Program-made: the position numbers and the translations under genes
Notes under the pieces: generated by a model
Databases searched by the model: none
What the model saw: the letters and a program-made list of their open reading frames with translations, nothing else
Told to the model about the DNA's origin: nothing
Shown: one piece after another, positions 31,041 to 44,123 of the stretch
Position numbering within the stretch: position 1 is the stretch's first letter
Layout of the letters: every line of letters begins with the position of its first letter
Assembly: GCA_016935835.1 (NCBI GenBank)
Contig: JAFGQE010000150.1
Span: 1-53,298, forward strand
Reading direction: 5' to 3'
DNA: 53,298 bases
From: Clostridia bacterium
GTDB lineage: Bacteria; Bacillota; Clostridia; DUPQ01

Positions 31041-31152
31041 GTCAGGCACCCCGCTTATTATTTCCATGAAATTATATCATAATATATTATAATGCAGTTA
31101 TTCCTGACAGCCCCCGGGCTTTGGATCCGCATGAGCATCCGGGGAAATATGA

Positions 31153-31158
31153 TATAAT
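31153..31158 (+). promoter_or_regulatory. -10 box candidate for the SLC13-type carrier gene
   Basis: TATAAT within GATATAATG, 29 bases before the proposed ATG 31187; no convincing -35. It rules against the earlier in-frame ATG at 31121 if used. On the other strand, ATTATA at 31071-31076 reads as TATAAT towards the GH2 gene. Confidence 0.35.
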
Positions 31159-31186
31159 GTCCTGGAGCCGGGAGGCATGGGCTGAT

Positions 31187-32581
31187 ATGAAAAAATATAA
31201 AAGAATTCTGGATATTCTGGCAGGGGCGGCTTTATTCGCAACCATCGCCCTGATATTGCCTGATGGGTTCGCCGCGGAGGCGAAGATAGCCATGGGAATG
31301 ATAGCGATGATGGTTTACTGGTGGATAACCCGGCCGGTGCATTATGCAGTCACCGCATTGGTTCCTTTGGTGGTCAACTCAGTTTATCCAATGATTCCCA
31401 TGGCTGATCTGCTCGGGGAATATGCGGACCCTATAGTTTTGCTGATACTCGGGGCAAGCATCCTGACGGCCGCCTGGACCCTTCACGGGCTTGACAAGAG
31501 AATAGCGCTGAAATCCCTGACATGGATAGGAACATCGGTCAATAAGCAGCTGGCCGTTTGGTTTCTGCTCGCGGTTGGCATGAGTGCATTCCTGCCAAAC
31601 ATGGTTGTAGCCGCGGCGTTGTGCCCGGTGGCGTATGCGATGATGAAATACTCAGGCGGTTCGAATGACGGAAAAACATCAAATCTTTTGCTGCTTGCAA
31701 TAGTATGGGGCGCTGGAATCGGCGGAATCGGAACACCCATGGGCGGTGCGATGAACCTGGTTGTGATATCGAACATAGAAAAGCAAACGGGCAATGAGTT
31801 TCTTTACTGGGAATGGGTTGCGCGGATATTCCCGTTCCTGCTGGTGCTGTCGGCGGTTGTCCTTGCATATATTTTATTAATAAGGAAGGATACCCGTGAA
31901 CTTGAAGGGAGCAAGGAATATTTCAAAACACAGCTTCAGGCCGCGGGTCCATTGAGCAAGCCTGAGGCAGCTGTACTGCTTCTTTTTCTGTTTGCCGTTG
32001 CATTGTCGTTCACAAGGCCTTTTTACCAGGGCTTGTTTCCGGGTTTCACCCCGCCGTTCGCCTTTTTGTTGATGGGCCTTATGACATTCCTGATAAAACC
32101 CAGGGGACATGGCCGGCTGATGGACTGGAATTATACGGCGGCAAATATCAACTGGGGTCTTCTCATTCTTTTTGCGGGAGGGCTGGCAGCGGGCGGATTG
32201 ATAACCGGAACGGGAGCGGCCGAATCCATGGCAGTGATGTTAAATGACAACGGCTCTGCCGGAGTGATTGGTGCGGTCATGGTCATTGCGGCAGTAGGTA
32301 TGTTCCTTGCAAACGCTTCAAGCAATACTGCCGCGTGCGCGGTTCTGGTTCCCATGGTGATTACCATTGCGGTCGGAATGGGCCACGACCCGCTGCCATA
32401 TGTGTTCCTGACCGCCGCGGCATGCAACAGTGCATATGCGCTGCCGACGTCAATCAGGGCGGTTCCGGTCGGATACGGACTGGACACAGGCTTTATGTTC
32501 AGGAAGGGTATGATTGCCATTCTGATATCATATGCGGCCCTTGTTTTGTCGGGATACGCATATATATTGCTTTTGGCATAG
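31187..32581 (+). CDS. SLC13/DASS-type anion transporter (candidate sulfur oxyanion or dicarboxylate carrier)
   Basis: A 464-residue membrane protein with about 11-12 hydrophobic segments. GGAGG (31171-31175) lies 11 bases before ATG 31187. The two family-defining hairpins are recognisable: GIGTPMGGAMNLVV and NASSNTAACAVLVPM, each with the Ser/Asn-Thr type signature that binds sodium and anion in this superfamily. Substrates in the family are sulfate, dicarboxylates, citrate or phosphate. A TusA gene follows after 12 bases, so sulfate, sulfite or thiosulfate is an attractive guess but not shown by sequence. Confidence 0.83.
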   Translation: MKKYKRILDILAGAALFATIALILPDGFAAEAKIAMGMIAMMVYWWITRPVHYAVTALVPLVVNSVYPMIPMADLLGEYADPIVLLILGASILTAAWTLHGLDKRIALKSLTWIGTSVNKQLAVWFLLAVGMSAFLPNMVVAAALCPVAYAMMKYSGGSNDGKTSNLLLLAIVWGAGIGGIGTPMGGAMNLVVISNIEKQTGNEFLYWEWVARIFPFLLVLSAVVLAYILLIRKDTRELEGSKEYFKTQLQAAGPLSKPEAAVLLLFLFAVALSFTRPFYQGLFPGFTPPFAFLLMGLMTFLIKPRGHGRLMDWNYTAANINWGLLILFAGGLAAGGLITGTGAAESMAVMLNDNGSAGVIGAVMVIAAVGMFLANASSNTAACAVLVPMVITIAVGMGHDPLPYVFLTAAACNSAYALPTSIRAVPVGYGLDTGFMFRKGMIAILISYAALVLSGYAYILLLA

Positions 32582-32593
32582 GCGGTGAGTCTT

Positions 32594-32824
32594 ATGAAAG
32601 AAAATGCCAGGATGCTGGATTGTTTCGGGGACATGTGTCCCTTGCCCTTGCTCAGAATAGAGGCTGAAATTCCCAGGACCGGGAAAGGGGACAGCTTTGT
32701 GGTTGTCACTGACCACAGCTGCGTGCTTGAATCAATAAAAGACAAATACAAGGACAAGAACATAACGATGGAAATAGAGGAAGTTATGAACGGCGTATGG
32801 GAAATTACATTTACGAAGCTATGA
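32594..32824 (+). CDS. TusA-family sulfur carrier protein (copy 1)
   Basis: A 76-residue cytoplasmic sulfur-relay protein. ATG 32594 is preferred to GTG 32585, which overlaps the AGGCGGTGAG binding region. Active Cys15 lies in MCPLPLL, the family CPxP motif; a second Cys in VVVTDHSC matches the other copy at 34664. TusA proteins carry sulfur as a persulfide between rhodaneses, transporters and acceptors. Probably cotranscribed with the carrier. Two TusA copies in 2.1 kb imply separate partners. Confidence 0.92.
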   Translation: MKENARMLDCFGDMCPLPLLRIEAEIPRTGKGDSFVVVTDHSCVLESIKDKYKDKNITMEIEEVMNGVWEITFTKL

Positions 32825-32870: not shown

Positions 32871-33770
32871 TCAGCAGAATGATTTCGTTCCTTTGCTTAT
32901 GAACCAGGATATGAATTCCTCGACCTGGCGCGAATGGCTTTTCTTAAACAGAAGTATCATCTCGAGGTCCATGTTGAAATCAGGTACCTTTATTTGCTTG
33001 AAATCCTTTTTGTACAGCTCCTCCTTCACGGAGATATACGGGAGAAATGCAAGCCCGTAATTCCTGGATATCATGATCTTGGCGCCCTCTATCCCCTCGA
33101 CCTCCATGTGGCAGTTGAGGTTGTCCCTGGCGTAACCGAGTTTCTTAAGGTTGTTCATAAGGATATCGTTGATATCATTCCTTCCTGTAAATGTTATTAT
33201 ACAGGCATCCAGGAGTTCTTCGATTGACAGGACGTCCGGGTTGGACGGAATGTTTTTTCCCGCCAGTACGATATTGTTTATTCCTGTCTTGATCGAAACC
33301 ACATCCTTGGGAAGCCGGAGGGGACCGGTGAAATATGAAAAGCCTATATCGCAGATATTATTGACGACATCCGTGGCGATATCCGTGGAAAGACGGGATT
33401 TCAATTCGTACTTGTGCGACGGAAACTGCTTGTTGGCGAGCATGAGGGTGCATGGGAGCGCATAATTGGCTATGGCGCTGCATGCTTCTATCTTGATCAG
33501 CTCCCCGACGCCGCCCTGTGTCTTGATTTCATCAAGCATCTCATCATAGGTGCGTATTATATTTTCAGCGAACTTATAGACTGTCTCGCCCGCAGGGGTC
33601 AGAACCACCCCTTTGTTGCTTCTTTCAAGCAGCTTGCAGGACATGTCCGCCTCCAGCTTGCTTATCTGCTGGCTCAGGGCGGATTGCGAGATATGGGCTT
33701 CACCCGCTATGCTGCTTATGCTGCCCGCGTTTGCAATCTTATAAAAGAATTTCAAAGATTCTATATTCAT
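32871..33770 (-). CDS. LysR-type transcriptional regulator of the sulfur island
   Basis: A 299-residue regulator. The N-terminal winged helix (about 1-65) reads FYKIANAGSISSIAGEAHISQSALSQQISKLE; the substrate-binding domain follows (about 88-295). GGAGC precedes the ATG. It is transcribed away from the YeeE-type gene, with LysR-like dyads between them, the classic arrangement of a regulator and its target. The effector may be a sulfur compound by analogy with CysB; not seen in the sequence. Confidence 0.92.
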   Translation of the reverse strand: MNIESLKFFYKIANAGSISSIAGEAHISQSALSQQISKLEADMSCKLLERSNKGVVLTPAGETVYKFAENIIRTYDEMLDEIKTQGGVGELIKIEACSAIANYALPCTLMLANKQFPSHKYELKSRLSTDIATDVVNNICDIGFSYFTGPLRLPKDVVSIKTGINNIVLAGKNIPSNPDVLSIEELLDACIITFTGRNDINDILMNNLKKLGYARDNLNCHMEVEGIEGAKIMISRNYGLAFLPYISVKEELYKKDFKQIKVPDFNMDLEMILLFKKSHSRQVEEFISWFISKGTKSFC

Positions 33771-33859: not shown

Positions 33860-33948
33860 CAAAACGGATATATCCATTTCCCGTGCATATGTTAAAATCG
33901 TTAAGGAATGTTAATTTATTAACAAAGTTTTGGAAAGGATGTGAAAAA

Positions 33949-34641
33949 GTGACTGAAGGAGTGGAAAGGAAATCCTCAAGGGCTTCGGCCGGGGGAGCCA
34001 AGCGAAAGAAAAAGAACCAGCTTCCGATTGCGGTTGTCATTTTCGTCGTCATAGCAGGAATAGGCGTATGGCTTGGCTTCAGGGGTGAGAACCTTCTTTT
34101 GTACTGGCTGCTGGGCCTGGCATTCGGGTTTGTCCTGCAAAGGTCAAGATTTTGTTTCACGGCTTCCATGAGGGATCCGTATCTGACGAAAAGCACATCG
34201 ATAACCAGGGCGGTGCTGATTGCGTTCGCGTTGACAAGCATCGGGTTCACCGCGATAAAATACGGTTATTTCGCGAACGGTCTTGCCATACCCGGGCAAA
34301 GCTTCGTCGCCACGATAAGCATAGCGACGGCCGTAGGCGCAATAATGTTCGGAATAGGCATGGTCATAGCGGGCGGATGCGCATCAGGAACGCTCATGAG
34401 GGTCGGCGAGGGTTTTTGGATGCAGGTTATATCCCTTTTCTTCTTTATCGTGGGATCCCTCTGGGGAGCGCATGATTTCGGATGGTGGAAAAGAACTTTC
34501 ATGCTGAAAGGATTCGAGGTGTTTTTACCCGATTACCTTGGATGGCTGGGCGGACTGGGCGCCAACCTGCTTATAATAGCGGTCATTTATGTCATAGCGC
34601 ATAAATGGGAGAAAAAGCACAGCAACGAGCTGTCGCACTAA
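33949..34641 (+). CDS. YeeE/YedE-family sulfur transporter, first half
   Basis: A 230-residue membrane protein of the Sulf_transp family, whose characterised member (TsuA) takes up thiosulfate. GTG 33949 follows GGAAAGG (33932-33938) by ten bases; the ATG at 33883 has no site. A basic Ser/Lys-rich N-tail precedes about five or six membrane segments. Conserved cysteines are Cys69 in LQRSRFCF and Cys144 in AGGCASGTLMR. The third conserved Cys region of the full-length family is missing here and is found in the protein at 34929, so the transporter appears split in two. A TusA gene lies between the halves. Confidence 0.87.
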   Translation: MTEGVERKSSRASAGGAKRKKKNQLPIAVVIFVVIAGIGVWLGFRGENLLLYWLLGLAFGFVLQRSRFCFTASMRDPYLTKSTSITRAVLIAFALTSIGFTAIKYGYFANGLAIPGQSFVATISIATAVGAIMFGIGMVIAGGCASGTLMRVGEGFWMQVISLFFFIVGSLWGAHDFGWWKRTFMLKGFEVFLPDYLGWLGGLGANLLIIAVIYVIAHKWEKKHSNELSH

Positions 34642-34663: not shown

Positions 34664-34894
34664 ATGAGTAAAGAAGTTGTATTGGATTGTCTGGGAGAGG
34701 CTTGCCCGATCCCCTTGGTCAAGAGCGAGAAAGCCATTGAGAAAATGGCTGTCGGCGACGTGCTTGTAGTACAGGTTGACCACAGTTGCGCGATGAAGAA
34801 TGTTCCCGAGTGGGCCAGGAAACAAGGATATGAAGTTGAAGTCGAGGAAGTCGACGACGGCGAATGGGAAATCATAATAGAAAAGACAAAATGA
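34664..34894 (+). CDS. TusA-family sulfur carrier protein (copy 2, TsuB-like)
   Basis: A 76-residue sulfur carrier. ATG 34664 follows GGAGGAA; an ATG at 34649 in frame lies before that site. Active Cys14 is in ACPIPLV, with LDCLGEACPIP the standard family opening and VDHSC shared with copy 1. In thiosulfate-uptake loci a TusA-like protein encoded beside the transporter receives sulfur on the inner face; gene order here, between two transporter halves, fits that role. Confidence 0.94.
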   Translation: MSKEVVLDCLGEACPIPLVKSEKAIEKMAVGDVLVVQVDHSCAMKNVPEWARKQGYEVEVEEVDDGEWEIIIEKTK

Positions 34895-34928: not shown

Positions 34929-35477
34929 TTGAAGGCATTTTTCGAAAAAATCAAAGAGAACGAATTTTACAAGCTTTGGTTCAAGGATGCGCTGCCGTAT
35001 GTAACCGGTGCGGTTCTGCTGTCGGTTTTCCAGATCGTGACGTTTGCGACGACAGGCAACCCATGGGGAGTTTCCGGGGTTTTCGCGGAGTGGGGCGCAT
35101 GGATCTTTGAATTGTTCGGCGGCTCGGTTGACAAATGGTATTATTTCAGTTCGCCTGGGGCACAGGCGACGCTGAATGCCGGAATTCTGAACCATGCCCC
35201 GACATGGAGAAACCTGGGGATAATCGCCGGCGCATTGTTCGCCGCCATGATGGCCTCCGGTTTCAAGATCAAGAAAATCAAGTCCTACAAGCAGGTGGTC
35301 GCCGCGGTCCTTGGAGGTTTGCTCATGGGCTATGGAGCAAGGATTGCGTTTGGCTGCAACATCGGCGCGCTTTACAGCGGGATAGCGTCGCTGTCGCTTT
35401 CAGGATGGGTTTTCGCGGCATTCATGTTCGTGGGAGCGATCATCGGAAGCAAGCTGCTTGTAAAATATTTTATGTAA
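34929..35477 (+). CDS. YeeE/YedE-family sulfur transporter, second half
   Basis: A 182-residue membrane protein with about four or five segments. Starts at TTG 34929, nine bases after GGAGG (34915-34919). Carries ARIAFGCNIGALYSGIASLSLSGWVF, the family C-terminal motif with Cys143. It lacks the AGGCASG motif found in the first half, so the two together make a full set. N-terminal residues 1-60 contain a cytoplasmic helix and a hydrophobic stretch unlike short YeeE domains. A heteromeric transporter is inferred. Confidence 0.86.
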   Translation: MKAFFEKIKENEFYKLWFKDALPYVTGAVLLSVFQIVTFATTGNPWGVSGVFAEWGAWIFELFGGSVDKWYYFSSPGAQATLNAGILNHAPTWRNLGIIAGALFAAMMASGFKIKKIKSYKQVVAAVLGGLLMGYGARIAFGCNIGALYSGIASLSLSGWVFAAFMFVGAIIGSKLLVKYFM

Positions 35478-35492
35478 GAAGGAAGTATTGAA

Positions 35493-36713
35493 ATGGATAG
35501 AGAAAAAATCGTGGAAAAGTATGACGTCGTTATTATCGGCGGAGGAGCTTCAGGGCTGACCGCAGGGATATACTGCGGACGGGCGAGGCTGAACACCCTT
35601 GTGCTCGAGGAATCGCTCGTAGGAGGAATTGCCACGAATACCTGGGAGATTGAGAATTATCCCGGATTTCCCGAAAGTATCTCGGGCACCGGGCTTATGA
35701 ACCTGTTCTACCAGCAGGCAAAGAAATTCGGCGTCAAGTTCAAGCTGACGAATGTCAAGAATGTTGATTTTTCAGGCGATGTCAAGATAGTCGAGACGTT
35801 CAGGAACAGATATGAGGCAAAGGCCGTAATAATCTGCAACGGAAGCAAACCAAGGCTTACCAATGCTGAAAATGAACAGCAGTACATCGGCAAGGGCATA
35901 GCCTTCTGTGCGACATGCGATGCCGCCTCATGCACGGGGGAGGAAGTCCTGGTTATCGGGTCAGGCGATGCGGCCATCGAGGAGGGAATGTTCCTTACCA
36001 AGTTCGCAAGCAAGGTCAAGGTATCCATCATTCATGACGAGGGAATCATGGACTGCAATGCGATTGCAAAATCGGCGGCCCTTGCAAACCCGAAGATGGA
36101 GTTCCTGCACAACACGGTTGTCGAGAGATTCGAGGGCGGGGAAGAGATGAACAGGGTAATCCTGAAAAATCTAAAGACCGGCGCACTTGTTCCGGTCGAC
36201 TGCTTCAGATGTTTCCTTTTCATCGGTTATATACCTAACACATCCCTTTACAAAGGCATTATCGATATGAGCGGGAAGGGCTATATACTTACCAATGAGA
36301 ACATGGAAACCAACGTTCACGGCGTGTTCGCGGCGGGCGACGTCAGGGAGAAATTCCTGCGCCAGGTTGCGACTTGCGTCGGCGATGCCGCGACGGCGGG
36401 TGTAATGGCGGAGAAGTACATAGCCGAATCCGAGATATTCGAGAATATAATTATGAACGGCAACGGCATCGCGTATATATATGATGCGTCGGATGCGGAA
36501 CACAGGGAGTTCCTTGAGGAGATAGAGAAGCTTGAGGCCGAGTATGACGAATACTGCTGCCATAAGGTGGACACATATAAATCCCAGGGACTTGCCAAGA
36601 GACTGTGCAAGACCGGGCACTGTCCTTCCGTCGTAATCATCAAGAATGGAAAAATCGTCAAGGTGATTGACGAGGAGCACCTTAGCAAAAAGAACATAGA
36701 GGAAAATCTGTGA
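35493..36713 (+). CDS. Thioredoxin-reductase-like flavoprotein with a degenerate C-terminal thioredoxin domain
   Basis: A 406-residue cytoplasmic FAD enzyme. FAD-binding GGGASG (16-21), redox CATC (Cys139, Cys142) and second Rossmann GSGDAA (156-161) match low-molecular-weight thioredoxin reductases. The HRRxxxR motif that binds the NADPH 2'-phosphate is absent; the stretch reads IIHDEGIMD. An extra CFRC pair (237, 240) precedes the FAD-domain motif FIGYIPNT. Residues about 322-406 resemble thioredoxin, with CPSVVIIKNG as the cis-Pro region, but the CxxC site is replaced by DASD. The stop overlaps the next gene's upstream region. It probably reduces TusA or transporter persulfides; electron donor unknown. 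Confidence 0.87.
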   Translation: MDREKIVEKYDVVIIGGGASGLTAGIYCGRARLNTLVLEESLVGGIATNTWEIENYPGFPESISGTGLMNLFYQQAKKFGVKFKLTNVKNVDFSGDVKIVETFRNRYEAKAVIICNGSKPRLTNAENEQQYIGKGIAFCATCDAASCTGEEVLVIGSGDAAIEEGMFLTKFASKVKVSIIHDEGIMDCNAIAKSAALANPKMEFLHNTVVERFEGGEEMNRVILKNLKTGALVPVDCFRCFLFIGYIPNTSLYKGIIDMSGKGYILTNENMETNVHGVFAAGDVREKFLRQVATCVGDAATAGVMAEKYIAESEIFENIIMNGNGIAYIYDASDAEHREFLEEIEKLEAEYDEYCCHKVDTYKSQGLAKRLCKTGHCPSVVIIKNGKIVKVIDEEHLSKKNIEENL

Positions 36714-36736
36714 TTTTTATGAAAGGAAGGGAGCAA

Positions 36737-37633
36737 GTGAAAAAAACTGTTTTATTGATTACGCTGGTCCTGATGATCACAGTCATGCTGTCCGGATGCG
36801 GAAGCTTTGATTTCGCGGAAACCGGCGGATATATCGTAACTCCCAAGGAAGCCCTTGAAATGGCCGGCAACGGTGCAATACTCATTGATGCGCAATCGGC
36901 GGCGGACTACGGTCTCGCCCACATTGAAGGCGCGGTCAATATACCGATGTCGGAACTGGTGGTCAACGAACCTTATGCGAACATGCTTGCCGGTTCATCA
37001 CAGATCGAGCAATGCCTGGGTGCAGCGGGAATAACTGAAAATGACATGCTGCTGGTTTATGACAATAGTTCGAACATGGCGGCTGCAAGGGTGCAGTGGA
37101 CCCTCAACATGTACGGCAATTTCAATGTTCGCGTCGTAAGCGGCGGAATAAACGCATTGAAGGATGCAGGGGCGAAGACCACCATGGCGGCCGTGGAATT
37201 GCCTGAGGCCGAATACAAGGCCGGCGACACGCAGAAGAACCTTATAGTTACGCTTGATTATATCAAGTCGCAGCTCAACATGCCGGACGAAAACACGGTT
37301 ATCATCGATACAAGGAGCTTCGAGGAGTACAGGGCCGGCACGATACCGGGATCGGTGCACATAGAGTATATATGGAATAATTACGCCACGGGCGAGTACA
37401 AGAGCGTCCGCGACATACAGATTACCTATCTTGACAAAGGCATCATGCCGGAGATGAAGCTGATCCTTTTCTGCAAGACATCGGTAAGGGCGGCGCAGAC
37501 CTATACGGCATTGAAAAACGCAGGCTACAGGGATGTAAGGATTTATGACGGGGCATGGCTCGAATACGAGGACGTTGAAAATCCTGCGCCTCCGTCTGAA
37601 GATACGCCTCCTGAACCACAGGATGCGTCATAA
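36737..37633 (+). CDS. Tandem-rhodanese lipoprotein (SseA-like)
   Basis: A 298-residue exported sulfurtransferase. GTG 36737 follows AAGGAAGGGAG; the earlier ATG at 36710 overlaps the flavoprotein stop. The signal peptide ends LSGC (Cys21). Rhodanese domain 1 (about 33-150) is inactive, with Asp109 where the Cys would be in LLVYDNSS. Domain 2 (about 168-280) has the catalytic loop CKTSVRA (Cys246). This inactive-active order is that of classical thiosulfate sulfurtransferases. A Pro-rich acidic tail ends the protein. Expected to move sulfane sulfur on the cell surface. Confidence 0.92.
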   Translation: MKKTVLLITLVLMITVMLSGCGSFDFAETGGYIVTPKEALEMAGNGAILIDAQSAADYGLAHIEGAVNIPMSELVVNEPYANMLAGSSQIEQCLGAAGITENDMLLVYDNSSNMAAARVQWTLNMYGNFNVRVVSGGINALKDAGAKTTMAAVELPEAEYKAGDTQKNLIVTLDYIKSQLNMPDENTVIIDTRSFEEYRAGTIPGSVHIEYIWNNYATGEYKSVRDIQITYLDKGIMPEMKLILFCKTSVRAAQTYTALKNAGYRDVRIYDGAWLEYEDVENPAPPSEDTPPEPQDAS

Positions 37634-37648
37634 GGAAAGGAAATATTT

Positions 37649-39241
37649 ATGAAGAAACTATTAGTTATTTTAATTGCGCTCGTGATGATTTTCACGGCTG
37701 GATGCGCCTCAACGGGGTCCGTGGAGGATGCCGCGACAAAGTATTTCGCGGAATATCCCGGCAACCGCATAGTTGAATGGGCGGATGTGTTTGCGAAGAT
37801 GGATGCGGGCGACGAGCCTTTCATCCTGAGCATAAGGTCCGCTGAGGATTATGCAAAGGCCCATATCAAGGGGGCTTACAACGCCGCATGGGGCGCGGAC
37901 CTCGCAGGCAAGGTTGCGATGCTTCCCACCGACAAGCCCGTCTATGTCTACTGTTATTCGGGACAGACCGCAGGCCAGGCGATCGCCCTGATGAATATGC
38001 TTGGAATCGAGGCATATTCAATTAAATCAGGCTTCAACTACGGTGCGATGAAAATCAGCGGCTATGAGGCTTATGTCGATACCTCCGCAGTAACCCTTCC
38101 AGATGCCGGGGCAAAGATGGACAAGAAGATCCTTGAGTTTGTCGAGGGATACTTCAGCACGGTTGCAGACAACGCCAACAACATCATTGCATCCGCTGAT
38201 GCGAAACCCCTAATTGAAGCAGGCGATGTTCTGGTTGTCGACATCAGAAGTGCAGCCGACTACGAAAAGGCCCACATAGACGGGGCTGTCAGCCTCCCGT
38301 TCGGAGCCGGAATGCAGGGGAAATTTGAAAATCTTCCAATGGATAAAAAACTTATCGTTGCCTGTTACTCCGGGCAGACAGCAGGACAGGCCGTTGCGAT
38401 TATGAAAGCCCTTGGTTACAATGCGGTATCCCTGAGATTTGGAATGGGGGACAACGGCTGGGCGGGATTCGTCAAGTCAGCGGCCGCGAACAACTATTTC
38501 GCTGATTATCCGGGGAACAGGATAGTTGCATGGGAAGATCTTTTCGCAAAGATGGACGCAGGCGAGGAACCATTCATACTCAGCATAAGGTCGGCTGAGG
38601 ACTATGGCAAGGGACACATCAAAACCGCAATGCTTGCCGCCTGGGGACAGGACCTTGCGGACAAGGTCTCCATGCTTCCTACGGACGAAACGGTATATGT
38701 GTACTGCTACTCCGGCCAGACGGCGGGACAGGCAGTGGCCATGTTCAATATGCTCGGAATAGATGCAGTATCGGTAAAAGCAGGCTTCAATTACGGTGCG
38801 ATGAAGATAGAGGGCTATGAAGCCTATGTAACTACCGATGCAACGGAACTTGCCGATGCGGGTGCGGATTTTGACGCGGTCATGCTCAATGAAGCGGTCA
38901 AATACTTCGCCGGAATAGCTGACAATGCAAGTTATAAGATCGGCTGGGACGACACGCTTGCAGCCGTGGAGGCAGGCGAGGCAACCGTAGTTGACATCAG
39001 GAGAGCCGAGGACTTCGCGGCGGGCCATATCCAGGGAGCCGTAAATGTTCCTTTCGGCGAAGGTATGCAGGAAAGCTTCGGTACTCTTCCTTCAGGCAAA
39101 CTGATAATCGCATGCTACACGGGACAGACGGCCGGTCAGGCTACGACGGTTCTCAGGATGCTTGGCAAGGATGCCGTGTCGCTTCATTTCGGAATGACGG
39201 CGGGCTGGGTGGCCAACGGATATCCTGTTGTAACGGACTGA
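37649..39241 (+). CDS. Lipoprotein with four catalytic rhodanese domains
   Basis: A 530-residue surface sulfurtransferase array. AAGGAAAGG precedes the ATG; signal peptide ends FTAGC (Cys19). Four rhodanese domains (about 30-145, 165-275, 282-395, 412-528) each keep a Cys in the loop C-Y-S/T-G-Q-T-A: Cys102, Cys239, Cys353, Cys489. Domains 1 and 3, and 2 and 4, are closest to each other, with a period of about 250 residues, so a two-domain unit was duplicated. No domain is inactive, unlike the classical tandem enzymes. Last gene of the sulfur island, followed by a strong terminator. Confidence 0.93.
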   Translation: MKKLLVILIALVMIFTAGCASTGSVEDAATKYFAEYPGNRIVEWADVFAKMDAGDEPFILSIRSAEDYAKAHIKGAYNAAWGADLAGKVAMLPTDKPVYVYCYSGQTAGQAIALMNMLGIEAYSIKSGFNYGAMKISGYEAYVDTSAVTLPDAGAKMDKKILEFVEGYFSTVADNANNIIASADAKPLIEAGDVLVVDIRSAADYEKAHIDGAVSLPFGAGMQGKFENLPMDKKLIVACYSGQTAGQAVAIMKALGYNAVSLRFGMGDNGWAGFVKSAAANNYFADYPGNRIVAWEDLFAKMDAGEEPFILSIRSAEDYGKGHIKTAMLAAWGQDLADKVSMLPTDETVYVYCYSGQTAGQAVAMFNMLGIDAVSVKAGFNYGAMKIEGYEAYVTTDATELADAGADFDAVMLNEAVKYFAGIADNASYKIGWDDTLAAVEAGEATVVDIRRAEDFAAGHIQGAVNVPFGEGMQESFGTLPSGKLIIACYTGQTAGQATTVLRMLGKDAVSLHFGMTAGWVANGYPVVTD

Positions 39242-39257
39242 TTTAAATTATTAATCC

Positions 39258-39288
39258 AAAGCCCCCGGATATGCCGGGGGCTTTTTTT
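39258..39288 (+). terminator. Terminator of the sulfur island
   Basis: GCCCCCGG (39261-39268) pairs with CCGGGGGC (39274-39281) around ATATG, with flanking AAA/TTT and a run of seven T. Confidence 0.92.
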
Positions 39289-39310
39289 AAATCATATTAT
39301 GTAATAGGGA

Positions 39311-39432: not shown

Positions 39433-39460
39433 TTGATATCGGCCTGCGATGATTTATAAT
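39433..39460 (+). promoter_or_regulatory. Promoter of the GT39/DegT/GT2/ATP-grasp operon
   Basis: TTGATA (39433-39438), a 16-bp spacer and TATAAT (39455-39460). Transcription would begin near 39467, at or just before the first usable ATG. Confidence 0.6.
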
Positions 39461-39466
39461 TGGAGC

Positions 39467-41011
39467 ATGGAAAAGCTTATGCGCAGGATAAAATCCATTG
39501 ACACGGCCTACTGGTATATATCGGCCTACTTTCTGGTCAACCTGATTTTTTTGACCCGGTTTCCTTTCATGCATTCCGATGAATCCTGGCTGTCCGGACT
39601 TTCCCGTTCAATGCAATCCGGGGGATTGGGCACGACCGAGACCTTCTTCGACCTTTTTCCGAGGCATCCCCATGCAATAAAGATACTGTTTCATATGGTA
39701 CAGATCGGATTTGAAAGTATCCTCGGCTACAGTCTTTTCACTTTCAGGCTTATATCGCTTATCGCTGGCATCGCCGTACTGGTGCTTTTCTATAAATCAG
39801 CCCGACTATTACTGAAGACCCGGATGGATGCCTTCCTTGCGACCGCGGCGCTTTCACTTTGCATCCAGTTCATATATGCGTCGCACTTCGCCCGGCAGGA
39901 AATAATCATTCTCGCCGGCATGACCGGAGTACTGTACTTCATAATGAGCAAAAGCATGGAGTGGGGCTATTGGAAGGATATTGCCGCCGCACTGGCTACA
40001 GGGGTTTTCGCAGGGGTTCATCCCAACAGCCTTATCATAGCGCTGGCAGCGGGCTCCCTGTATCTTTACTATATTGTCAGGAAGCAGGGCATGCGGATAT
40101 CAAACCTGCTTGTTTATATTTTTTCCACAGCCCTGACAGCGGGAATTTTCATAGGCATCAGCTTCATGTTCGACGGAAACTTCATATCGAATTATCTGTC
40201 ATACGGAAGCGGACTTGGTGTTTCCGATTCCCTGGCGGCCAAATCCGGGGGCATTCTGAGTTATTATCAAAAACTTTTCAATGGCGTCAGCGGAACTTAT
40301 TATACCCCCGGCATCCGTGCGGCCCTTATTTTGTTCGCGGTATCGCTGGCGGGGGGAACCTTTGCATTTTTCCGGGACAAAAACCTGGCAAGGCTTTTAA
40401 TGCCTATTGCAGCCGTCAACATCGGATTCATTTTGATAGGCAGGTTCTCACAACCCGGGGTGGTGCTGATATTTCCGCTTTGCATCCTATTGCTTTTTTG
40501 CCTTATCGGGAAAATCGCAGGGAGCAAGTCATGGATGGCCGCGGTCGCGGTATGCCTTTGCCTTGCGGTAAATTCAGCCATCGGAATAATTCCATATTCG
40601 GGCAATGAATACAAGGAGTACCTTGATGAAATAAAATCCACTGTTCCGGGCGACTCCGTGGTTCTTGCGAATCTCAATGCGGAATACGCATTCGGGCCGG
40701 GCGGACTGTACGACTACAGGAATCTCGCGTATCTCGGCGACGCCGGCCTGGATTTCGCAGGATACATTGAATCAAGGAATATAGAATATATAATTTATCC
40801 CGCGGAAATGGATTTCATATATGAGCGCAGGCCGGTATGGAACGTGGTATATGGAAACCTGTATCCATATTATGGGCAGATGCAGGAGTTCCTTGATCAA
40901 AGATGCAGGCTGATATATGAATTCAACTCGCCGTATGCTATGAGAATCGTGCGCTTTTCGTACGAACGGGAGTGGCCGGTCAGGATATATGAGGTGATTG
41001 CGGATGAATAA
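39467..41011 (+). CDS. GT39-like membrane glycosyltransferase (ArnT/PMT superfamily)
   Basis: A 514-residue polytopic membrane protein with about ten to twelve segments. The first extracytoplasmic loop has FMHSDESWLSGLSRSM, where the acidic pair matches the catalytic DE region of GT-C enzymes that use lipid-linked sugars. The rest (YASHFARQEIIILA, GVHPNSLIIALAAG) is typical of the family. Start choice is uncertain: ATG 39449 lies within the -10 box, 39467 is nearly leaderless and 39479 has a distant GGAG. Its stop overlaps the aminotransferase start by eight bases. Acceptor may be a surface polymer. Confidence 0.78.
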   Translation: MEKLMRRIKSIDTAYWYISAYFLVNLIFLTRFPFMHSDESWLSGLSRSMQSGGLGTTETFFDLFPRHPHAIKILFHMVQIGFESILGYSLFTFRLISLIAGIAVLVLFYKSARLLLKTRMDAFLATAALSLCIQFIYASHFARQEIIILAGMTGVLYFIMSKSMEWGYWKDIAAALATGVFAGVHPNSLIIALAAGSLYLYYIVRKQGMRISNLLVYIFSTALTAGIFIGISFMFDGNFISNYLSYGSGLGVSDSLAAKSGGILSYYQKLFNGVSGTYYTPGIRAALILFAVSLAGGTFAFFRDKNLARLLMPIAAVNIGFILIGRFSQPGVVLIFPLCILLLFCLIGKIAGSKSWMAAVAVCLCLAVNSAIGIIPYSGNEYKEYLDEIKSTVPGDSVVLANLNAEYAFGPGGLYDYRNLAYLGDAGLDFAGYIESRNIEYIIYPAEMDFIYERRPVWNVVYGNLYPYYGQMQEFLDQRCRLIYEFNSPYAMRIVRFSYEREWPVRIYEVIADE

Positions 41012-42128
41012 GATAAAATTCAACAAACCGTTTTATGACGTCGGGGAGATCGAAAACCTCAGGAAATATTTGCTTGGGGGAGTGGATTTCAGGCAGACCG
41101 TTGCCGGCCATCTGAAAAGAGCCACCGGCGCTGTGAAGGTTATTCCGACCGCCGGCGCCGCGGCGGCTATGGATGCTTATTTCGCCGCGATGAATTTCCC
41201 GTCGGGGGGAGAGGTGGCCATGCCCTCATTTACTTTTCCCTCCGCGGCCAATTCAGTGGTCAACGCAGGCCTGAGACCGGTTTTCACAGACATCGACCAA
41301 AGGACACTCGTCATGGACCAAGGGTGTCTTAAGGAGGGTTTATCTAAAAGGACCGTGTGCATAATGCCTGTTCACTATGGAGGCGCCTCGATGGATATGG
41401 ACTCCCTGATGGAAATCTCGCTCGAATACGGCATTCCGGTTTTCGAGGATGCGGCGCTTTCATACGGGGCTTTTTACAAGGGACGGCATCTTGGAACCAT
41501 CGGGGATGCGGGGGCGCTGAGTTTTCATGCCACCAAGAACATATCGGGCGACGGAGGCGGGGCGTTGCTTCTAAATGGCATGAATGTTGATGATGCATTT
41601 GAAGAGATACTTGCAGACGGCACGGACAGGCCCGCGTTCAATCGAGGCGAGGTAGCTGCATATACATGGCGGCGGGCGGGCAGGGGCGGCGCCATGACCG
41701 GCCTGACCGCGGCAGTGCTGGCGGCGCAGCTTGAAAAAGAGGACGACATCCGCCGCAGGCGAAAAATCGTGTGGGATGCATATTATTCGGGTTTGAAGAA
41801 ACTTGCCGGATCAGGCGTATTTGAGCTTCCGTCCATACCTCCGTACAACACCAACAATTATCATGTTTTCCATCTGGGATTCAAAGACAGGAAAGCGCGG
41901 GACGTCGTCGCCGGGGAACTGGCGGCGGCCGGGGTCGAGGCTTTCATACATTATATGCCGCTGCACTCATCCTCAATGGGAGCCAGCCTTGGCTATCGCC
42001 GCGGCGACCTTCCGGTCACCGAGTCGGCCGCATCCGGCCTTCTTCGCCTTCCCATGCACGCATGGCTTGACTCCGGCGACGTTGATGGAATCTGTAAACT
42101 CATTGCACGGGCGGTGGCGCATGTTTGA
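41004..42128 (+). CDS. DegT/DnrJ/EryC1-type PLP aminotransferase
   Basis: A 374-residue predicted sugar aminotransferase that adds an amino group to a nucleotide-linked keto-sugar. ATG 41004 follows GAGGTG (40991-40996). PLP-binding Lys178 is in SFHATKN, with Asp149 in FEDAALSYGA and TAGAAAAMDA near the phosphate site. The wording is close to WecE/RffA-like enzymes (dTDP-4-keto-6-deoxyglucose transaminase), but the substrate is not assigned. No nucleotide-sugar dehydratase is in the window. Overlaps both neighbours, so the operon is tightly coupled. Confidence 0.9.
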   Translation: MNKIKFNKPFYDVGEIENLRKYLLGGVDFRQTVAGHLKRATGAVKVIPTAGAAAAMDAYFAAMNFPSGGEVAMPSFTFPSAANSVVNAGLRPVFTDIDQRTLVMDQGCLKEGLSKRTVCIMPVHYGGASMDMDSLMEISLEYGIPVFEDAALSYGAFYKGRHLGTIGDAGALSFHATKNISGDGGGALLLNGMNVDDAFEEILADGTDRPAFNRGEVAAYTWRRAGRGGAMTGLTAAVLAAQLEKEDDIRRRRKIVWDAYYSGLKKLAGSGVFELPSIPPYNTNNYHVFHLGFKDRKARDVVAGELAAAGVEAFIHYMPLHSSSMGASLGYRRGDLPVTESAASGLLRLPMHAWLDSGDVDGICKLIARAVAHV

Positions 42129-42867
42129 TTGCAGCGTGTGCGTGGTTATACCGGTATATAACGGCTCGAGGCATCTGCCCCTGCTGATTGAAAGGACAGT
42201 GTCGGTTCTTTCGAATTTCAAGGATGGCAGGATCATAATGGTCGACGACAACAGCACAGACGTGAGCTATGGGATCATCAGGACGCTGGCTGACGGGAAT
42301 GACATCCTGACGGGAATCAGGCTTGACTCAAATTATGGCCAGCAGAGCGCCATTCTGTGCGGCCTTAATCACTGTGATTGCGATTATGCGGTCATAATGG
42401 ACGATGACCTCGAAAACAAACCGGAGGATATAACAAGGCTGTATGAAGCCGCGGCCAAGGGCCATGACGCGGTGTATGCGATTAATTCACGGCCTGGAGA
42501 CAAAAATCTTTTCAGGCGGTTCGGTTCAATGCTCAGGGATGCCACATTCAGCCTTCTTACGGACAAACCGCGCGGGATCAAGGTGTGCAGTTTTCGCATC
42601 ATCAACAGAAAGACGGTGGATGCGATAAAAGGCGCGGACAGGCGTTTTGTATATATATCGATGGAGATTCTGAAAAAGACGACCAGCATCGGCAATATCA
42701 CCGTGGAATACGGTCCAGCGGGCAGAACGGGGCACAGTCCGCAAAAACTCATCAGGCTGCTGGCAAATATTTATGTATATTATTCCGGCTGCAAACTTTT
42801 GGAAAAACTGGCGAAACCGGGACCGGCATATAAGGTCCTTGAAAAGACAGGGGATCATGGCTTATGA
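42121..42867 (+). CDS. Family 2 glycosyltransferase
   Basis: A 248-residue transferase with a GT-A fold. The real start is ATG 42121, overlapping the aminotransferase stop by eight bases; the frame stays open upstream to 41803 but that part only shadows the aminotransferase. VVIPVYNG opening, DDN (42-44) and MDDDLENKPED (Asp94-96) give the nucleotide- and metal-binding sites of dolichol/undecaprenyl-phosphate sugar transferases. The two C-terminal membrane helices of GtrB-type proteins are missing. It may charge a lipid with the amino-sugar for the GT39-like protein. Confidence 0.9.
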   Translation: MFDCSVCVVIPVYNGSRHLPLLIERTVSVLSNFKDGRIIMVDDNSTDVSYGIIRTLADGNDILTGIRLDSNYGQQSAILCGLNHCDCDYAVIMDDDLENKPEDITRLYEAAAKGHDAVYAINSRPGDKNLFRRFGSMLRDATFSLLTDKPRGIKVCSFRIINRKTVDAIKGADRRFVYISMEILKKTTSIGNITVEYGPAGRTGHSPQKLIRLLANIYVYYSGCKLLEKLAKPGPAYKVLEKTGDHGL

Positions 42868-44123
42868 AGGTAATGGTTCTTGGCGGCGGCGGCTGCCAGA
42901 TGAACATGATAAGGCGGCTGAAGCTGCAAGGACACGGGATTGTACTCGTGGATTATTTGTCCGGCTGCCCGGGAAGCGCGCTTGCCGATGAACATTATAG
43001 GATAAGCACGTTTGATTCCGTCGCGGTATCGGAATTGCTGGAATCCACTAAGCCGGAGGCGATCATAACAATGGGCACCGACCAGCCTGTACTGACCGCG
43101 GCCGTCTGCGCAGGGAGGGCGGGACTGCCTTTTTATCTGACTCCGGGGCAGGCTCTTTTAGCTACTAATAAAAGGATAATGAAGAAAATTTTCAAAGACA
43201 ACGGCATACCGACGGCGGAATACAGGCTCGCAGGGATTGATTTCAATGATGATGAAATAGCAGGCCTGCGCTTTCCCGCGGTACTGAAACCTGTTGACAG
43301 CCAGGGCCAGAGAGGGATATTCAAGGTGGCCGACGCGGATGAAGCCAGGAAACACATCCGTGAAACTTTGTCCTATTCGAGGGAGGACAAGGCGCTTTTG
43401 GAAGAATATTATGAAAACGACGAGATAACAGTGAACGGCTGGGTGGATGAAGGCAGGGCCCATATTCTTTCTGTAGTCGACAGGGTGACGATGGAGGCGG
43501 GCGACAGGATCGGAATATGCATGGCGCACAATTGCCCGTCGCTTCATCTTGCCGGAAACAGGGATGAAATCCTGTTCCTGACGCAGAAGATAACCGAGGC
43601 ATTCGGTTTCGGGGAAGGTCCGCTTTACTATCAGTTCCTGATCGGGGCGCAGGGAATAAAGGTCAATGAAATAGCCATGAGGATAGGCGGGGCGTACGAG
43701 GATATCACAATTCCGTTGATCAGCGGGGTCGATATACTCGGAATGCTTATTGAGAGTGTTCTGAAAGGGCGGTGCGGCAAGGAGGCTTTGCGTGCGCATG
43801 ACGGCAACCTTTCCAATTCATTTGTAACAACGCAGATGTTTTTCATCCGTCCCGGAAAAATCCAAAGCTTAACGCCGCTGTCCGGGATCACCGGGGAGAC
43901 ATATGTCATGGACGCAAGGTACCTGATATCCGAGGGCATGGAATCAGGGGAAGTGGAGAACGCCACAGCGCGCGCGGGGTATTTCATAGTCAGGGGAAAT
44001 GATTTCAACGACATGCTTGAAAAATCCGATGCGATATACGAAAAAATAAAAATACTTGACAGCAAAGGCCGTAACCTCCTTATAAAATACAAGGACTACA
44101 GTAACAAATACAAATTCCTCTAA
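42864..44123 (+). CDS. ATP-grasp ligase (carbamoyl-phosphate-synthase-like)
   Basis: A 419-residue predicted ligase that joins a carboxylate to an amine or thiol through an acyl-phosphate. N-terminal Rossmann-like domain (MVLGGGGCQMNMI), then the ATP-grasp fold with FPAVLKPVDSQGQRGI, ALLEEYYENDEITVNGWV and the metal-binding KVNEIAMRIGGAYE. Related by pattern to CarB, PurK and PylC-type enzymes. Start overlaps the GT2 stop (ATGA). Placed after an aminotransferase and a glycosyltransferase, it may attach an amino acid or other acid to an amino-sugar; this is inference. Followed by palindromic repeats. Confidence 0.88.
   Translation: MKVMVLGGGGCQMNMIRRLKLQGHGIVLVDYLSGCPGSALADEHYRISTFDSVAVSELLESTKPEAIITMGTDQPVLTAAVCAGRAGLPFYLTPGQALLATNKRIMKKIFKDNGIPTAEYRLAGIDFNDDEIAGLRFPAVLKPVDSQGQRGIFKVADADEARKHIRETLSYSREDKALLEEYYENDEITVNGWVDEGRAHILSVVDRVTMEAGDRIGICMAHNCPSLHLAGNRDEILFLTQKITEAFGFGEGPLYYQFLIGAQGIKVNEIAMRIGGAYEDITIPLISGVDILGMLIESVLKGRCGKEALRAHDGNLSNSFVTTQMFFIRPGKIQSLTPLSGITGETYVMDARYLISEGMESGEVENATARAGYFIVRGNDFNDMLEKSDAIYEKIKILDSKGRNLLIKYKDYSNKYKFL

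Follow-up and report, generated by a model that had tools for sequence, protein, structure and literature searches.

A stretch of 53,298 nucleotides from a Clostridia bacterium (contig JAFGQE010000150.1; here, the window) encodes a rhodanese lipoprotein, Rho4, with four domains and a cysteine in the active-site loop of each, which raises the question of why a surface protein would carry so many sites and what it would do with them. The gene (37649..39241, + strand) is an open reading frame of 530 amino acids with an ATG start. It begins with a signal peptide ending in the lipobox IFTAGC (37649..37705; Cys19, codon 37703-37705), followed on the same strand by the rhodanese domains D1 (37793..38038; Cys102, codon 37952-37954), D2 (38198..38434; Cys239, codon 38363-38365), D3 (38546..38788; Cys353, codon 38705-38707), and D4 (38954..39208; Cys489, codon 39113-39115). 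In all four domains the cysteine starts a six-residue loop, CYSGQT or CYTGQT (CYSGQTAGQ three times and CYTGQTAGQ once), and apart from Cys19 in the TAGC of the lipobox the protein has no further cysteines. Equivalent cysteines are spaced by 251 (353-102) and 250 (489-239) residues. The cysteine positions, loops, and spacings given in a first-pass annotation of this DNA all proved correct when we re-read the open reading frame, as did its designation of the protein as a lipoprotein: signal peptide, lipobox, and +1 cysteine predict lipid anchoring, and the lipobox, judged by pattern, is also kept in two orthologues (L034 and L035).

Pfam PF00581 matches Rho4 in four stretches (E 2.3e-52; 176 bits against a cut-off of 22.2), each domain singly exceeds the curated cut-off (41 to 51.5 bits), and the active-site loop motif did not occur in any of 2000 shuffles of the protein. 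The Pfam match and the loop cysteines place Rho4 in the rhodanese superfamily, with predicted sulfurtransferase activity. Modeled on its own with AF2, D2 takes a rhodanese fold (pLDDT 86); the full-length model, made from single-sequence input, has a pLDDT of 37. Against the NCBIfam models of GlpE and PspE, Rho4 scores 97.6 and 96.8 bits, sums over several domains that lie under the 102-bit cut-off. It also departs from the classical tandem TST/MST type, in which the N-terminal domain lacks the cysteine, by having one in every domain.

The two halves of Rho4, H1 and H2, align without large gaps and are 62.7% identical. Because equivalent domains (D1/D3, 76%; D2/D4, 47.5%) are closer than nonequivalent ones (36-44%), the alignment of the four domains bears out the duplication of a two-domain unit that the first-pass annotation had proposed. 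Identity between the halves is 76, 77, and 38% at codon positions 1, 2, and 3, a pattern suggesting that the duplication is old and that purifying selection has acted on it.

The rhodanese family and its four-domain forms

To place Rho4 in a broader perspective, we searched 60 genomes of relatives, 391 genomes of the class, 398 genomes of the phylum, and a record of Acetoanaerobium noterae (Bacillota, Clostridia). With the 32 homologues found, the family comprises 33 full-length proteins, 7 with four domains and 26 with two, the latter being the common form; an eighth four-domain member, in genome G598, is broken across contigs and stands outside this count. Two of the four-domain proteins are orthologues of Rho4 in related genomes (71% and 65% identical). 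Each of the 80 domains in these 33 proteins has the loop cysteine, within the consensus C-[YVFW]-[ST]-[GA]-[QH]-T-[AS], and the threonine at the loop end (Thr107 and its equivalents in Rho4) is invariant. The constraint on all four cysteines supposed at the outset is thus seen across the orthologues, none of which shows random loss, and intact sites are the state of the whole family, since two-domain members, too, have a cysteine in each of their loops. In most members the mature chain has no cysteine other than those of the loops and the lipobox, which makes a disulfide role unlikely.

Membership was limited in two directions. We left outside the family the single-domain matches L036 and L064 and a distant two-domain lipoprotein pair of about 25% identity that has lost both cysteines (L037, 5650-6510; L038, 253-1095), which is perhaps a binding protein. 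A contig scan returned only unrelated rhodaneses of Ignavibacteria and Bacteroidetes, followed by DoxX-like genes, and these were rejected as members. A search for a Rho4-type protein in phages found no carrier, and a loop-only search of the PDB gave no match. Spo0A was looked for and not found, from which nothing firm on taxonomy follows. Membrane anchoring does not seem to be essential, since six two-domain homologues and the four-domain protein of G160 show no visible lipobox; anchoring appears, from these sequences, to have been lost or gained within the family. The homologues at several loci (L053, 7964-9796; L093, L095, L097, L099, L101, and L102) have no lipobox and a signal peptide that looks ordinary.

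We then asked how often the four-domain form arose, using a tree whose tips are the two-domain units of the family proteins. The window's family contributes six units from three genomes, which cluster with support of 100/100; within this cluster the H1 units (97/90) and the H2 units (97/91) each form a clade of their own, and therefore the duplication in Rho4 is older than the split of these genomes. The two units of the G160 protein pair with each other (100/99) in a position nested next to a two-domain protein, and those of G336 and f162 form a third group (100/98). Half-to-half identity among the four-domain forms ranges from 60 to 81%, and some two-domain rows with long branches are placed in the tree with little certainty. 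A single four-domain ancestor was rejected when all four-domain units were forced into one clade (AU p 0.008), and it is also unlikely because two-domain proteins are nested between the four-domain groups, although gene conversion between halves could mimic part of this pattern. With that caveat, the tree shows at least three independent origins of the four-domain form. The best reading of this recurrence is that additional sites were selected repeatedly in surface rhodaneses, and the repeated doubling, with every cysteine kept, lets one ask from natural variation whether selection acts on the number of sites as such.

The gene row and the source of sulfur

Rho4 is the last gene of a row that runs in one direction on the + strand. 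The row starts with the N-terminal half of a split YeeE/YedE protein (YedE-a, 33883..34641; PF04143), followed by a TusA-family sulfur carrier (34664..34894; PF01206, E 3e-26), which we found by reading the gap between the two importer halves, and by the C-terminal half (YedE-b, 34929..35477; PF04143). Next come a thioredoxin-reductase-like flavoprotein with a CATC motif and a C-terminal extension (35493..36713), the two-domain rhodanese lipoprotein Rho2 (36710..37633), and Rho4 itself, behind which lies the strongest terminator-like hairpin of the region by pattern match (39258..39290; 11 pairs, 8 of them G-C, with a T tail). A LysR-type regulator is divergent from the row (32871..33770, - strand). 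On its far side, a second TusA-family gene (32585-32824) directly follows a DASS-type anion symporter (31121-32581), and relatives keep a second TusA-family copy adjoining the DASS or LysR gene.

In alignments, YedE-a and YedE-b correspond to the two ends of TsuA from S. thermophila, and all three TsuA cysteines are conserved, Cys91 and Cys166 in YedE-a and, at the cysteine of the GCNIG motif, Cys143 in YedE-b. Both halves score below the cut-off of the NCBIfam TsuA model, a whole-length model (73.6 and 53.9 bits against 400), so we call the importer TsuA-type and not TsuA. The nearest curated names in and beside the row, all below cut-off, are linked to selenium (YedE/FdhT for the halves, YedF beside TsuB/YeeD for TusA, and LysR_Sec_metab for the regulator), and they raise an alternative, that the rhodaneses bind selenium as a cysteine perselenide for import by a route of the YedE/YedF type. 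SelD is indeed enriched among carriers of the family in the class sample (11/14 against 77/377), but the enrichment is weak in the phylum sample (17/20 against 242/378, p 0.06, with relatedness ignored), and SelD was found neither in the window's genome nor in the two others of its genus; the search for it in two near-complete carriers, G295 and G587, was negative as well. Selenium therefore cannot be the general role, and we regard this alternative as unlikely, while a dual role in sulfur and selenium is possible.

The second rhodanese of the row is of a different type. In Rho2 the N-terminal domain lacks the cysteine and the C-terminal loop reads CKTSVR; in all 15 sequences compared (Rho2 and 14 homologues), aspartate replaces the cysteine of the first domain and the second loop is C[KQ][TS]S[VIY]R. 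Rho2 thus reads as a classical one-site tandem rhodanese with a loop-end arginine, a type complementary to Rho4. It accompanies the four-domain forms in 7/7 cases against 7/26 for the two-domain forms, a count that ignores relatedness and on which we claim no association.

The first-pass annotation had taken the missing loop arginine as a sign that the donor is not thiosulfate. The loop of E. coli GlpE, CYHGNS, is without arginine as well. Structural and mutational evidence overturns the argument: according to Wang et al., the sixth loop residue does the thiosulfate job as arginine or as threonine/serine (arginine in 8, threonine in 3, and serine in 2 of 13 solved rhodaneses), changing arginine to isoleucine or threonine to valine at this position weakens or eliminates the capture of sulfur from thiosulfate, and human TST, whose loop ends in threonine, loses its thiosulfate activity in the T253V mutant (PMC8533005). 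GlpE does work on thiosulfate, with a Km of 33.6 mM, against 7.8 mM for PspE (PMC10215317). Since all Rho4 loops end in threonine, they do not reveal the donor. No PF01077 sulfite/nitrite reductase was found in the window's genome, which is 90.6% complete, and this fits use of the sulfane sulfur atom only.

Given that its gene lies in one row with those of a sulfur importer, Rho4 probably passes external sulfur to that importer, and we lean toward seeing it as an extracytoplasmic, membrane-anchored sulfane-sulfur transferase or carrier that feeds the split, TsuA-like YeeE/YedE protein. We infer that each Rho4 domain would take sulfur from an external donor, either directly or loaded by its Arg-loop neighbor Rho2, would hold it as a cysteine persulfide, as family knowledge suggests, and would deliver it to the importer, as the gene context suggests; the TusA encoded between the importer halves would then take the sulfur over inside the cell. 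Doubling two sites to four would let each molecule load sulfur at more places, which may be the benefit. The relay and the high-capacity store put forward in the first-pass annotation are speculative, as the evidence fits a relay and four independently acting sites equally well. That annotation overlooked the two-domain form, the Arg-loop neighbor, and the importer and TusA genes. The same row bears on another alternative, that the rhodaneses serve surface detoxification or redox defense against cyanide, reactive sulfur, or metalloids, as has been suggested for the Geobacter ExtH region. ExtH, which we liken to Rho4 by description only, is a lipoprotein of the rhodanese family whose gene cluster has been linked to the reduction of selenite and tellurite (PMC6148476, PMC5877670). 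The Rho4 row, however, contains no cytochrome or metal genes, and its importer and internal sulfur carrier point to uptake and not to detoxification, so we consider a defensive role improbable.

The row from YedE-a to Rho4 is retained in two relatives (L034 and L035), and the set of YedE-a, TusA, YedE-b, and the flavoprotein shares a locus with a family gene in A. noterae. A record of this species (NZ_CP154629.1) is labelled plasmid pTPELB2, but at 2.63 Mb it looks chromosome-like. YedE, whole or split, lies near the family gene in 15 of the 34 loci examined; at many loci, including those of the four-domain proteins of G160, G336, G521, and G574, none was seen within the stretch examined, and the importer link is therefore not universal. 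Phylum-wide, the neighbors that recur most steadily are genes for glycosyltransferases, DegT, ATP-grasp proteins, and ABC transporters, which delivery to the importer leaves unexplained.

These neighbors belong to a phylum-wide locus that couples rhodaneses to glycosylation, ligase, and transport genes (39449-44123 in the window; L053-L062, L092-L106, and L112). It encodes a PMT/ArnT-like membrane glycosyltransferase, a DegT aminotransferase, an ArnC-like GT2, an ATP-grasp ligase, and an SsuABC-like ABC transporter, in the order DegT-GT2-ATPgrasp-SBP-permease-ATPase with a divergent GT39, and may be a more novel finding than Rho4. At L054, L057, L058, L059, L061, L095, L099, and L101, two-domain homologues often lie beside full-length YedE and TauABC-like genes, often adjoining a CoA-disulfide-reductase-like protein with a rhodanese domain of its own. 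The SsuA-family and TauA-like ABC genes that adjoin the family gene in many relatives suggest a further alternative, in which the rhodaneses serve the uptake or breakdown of organosulfur compounds (sulfonates, taurine-like). We give this little credence, because a rhodanese acts on sulfane sulfur and not on sulfonate sulfur; moreover, a weak search, run with no positive control, found no match for an SsuA-like binding protein in the window's genome or the two nearest carriers.

Comparison with known systems

The first-pass annotation had set Rho4 against classical tandem rhodaneses with a single active domain, but more than one intact site has precedents. The tandem rhodanese of Desulfitobacterium hafniense that Prat et al. 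reportedly described in 2012 has two active sites. As far as the available description of it goes, and by description only, this protein resembles Rho4 in being tandem, in having more than one active site, and in coming from an anaerobic Gram-positive bacterium, and differs in having two sites instead of four. The two-domain rhodanese of Francisella (PDB 6mxv) likewise has a cysteine in both loops, as in the two-domain form of our family, but its loops are of the CGxGFR kind and end in arginine, whereas those of Rho4 end in threonine. Given the published Desulfitobacterium protein with its two active sites, the retention of every site is no novelty in itself. More surprising are the count of four and the recurrent duplication, in what is a little-described family. 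"Tandem rhodanese" need not mean one dead domain, and this affects automatic annotation. The four-domain thiosulfate sulfurtransferase of PDB 1yt8 matches Rho4 in having four domains in a chain of similar length, yet in alignments its domains 1 and 3 lack the loop cysteine, and the similarity is weak (E 1e-9). NCBIfam NF045521 (rhoda_near_glyco) describes a rhodanese domain near glycosyltransferases, as found around the family genes, but it is a 144-amino-acid model with a cut-off of 145 bits, and Rho4 scores 72.6.

The closest parallel for the importer is TsuA-TsuB (YeeE-YeeD), which shares with it the protein family, the three conserved cysteines, and a TusA-like partner; in the window, by contrast, the importer is encoded by two genes with TusA between them and with surface rhodaneses in the row. 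TsuA needs the TusA-like TsuB for thiosulfate uptake, PmpA/PmpB have been described as split YeeE-family proteins, and the question of how YeeE-family importers are offered sulfane sulfur or thiosulfate, still unanswered, has been discussed for SoxT (PMC11582611). As a generalization that we hold to be doubtful at present, repeated-unit surface rhodaneses could be modular sulfur-loading antennae. Selection for additional persulfide sites on each anchored molecule would have doubled the two-site unit in several lineages independently, and the units would pass their sulfur directly to a split TsuA-type importer backed by TusA on the inside, such that sulfane sulfur would cross the membrane from protein to protein. 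Surface rhodaneses encoded together with a split importer and TusA provide a concrete, testable donor side for YeeE-family importers.
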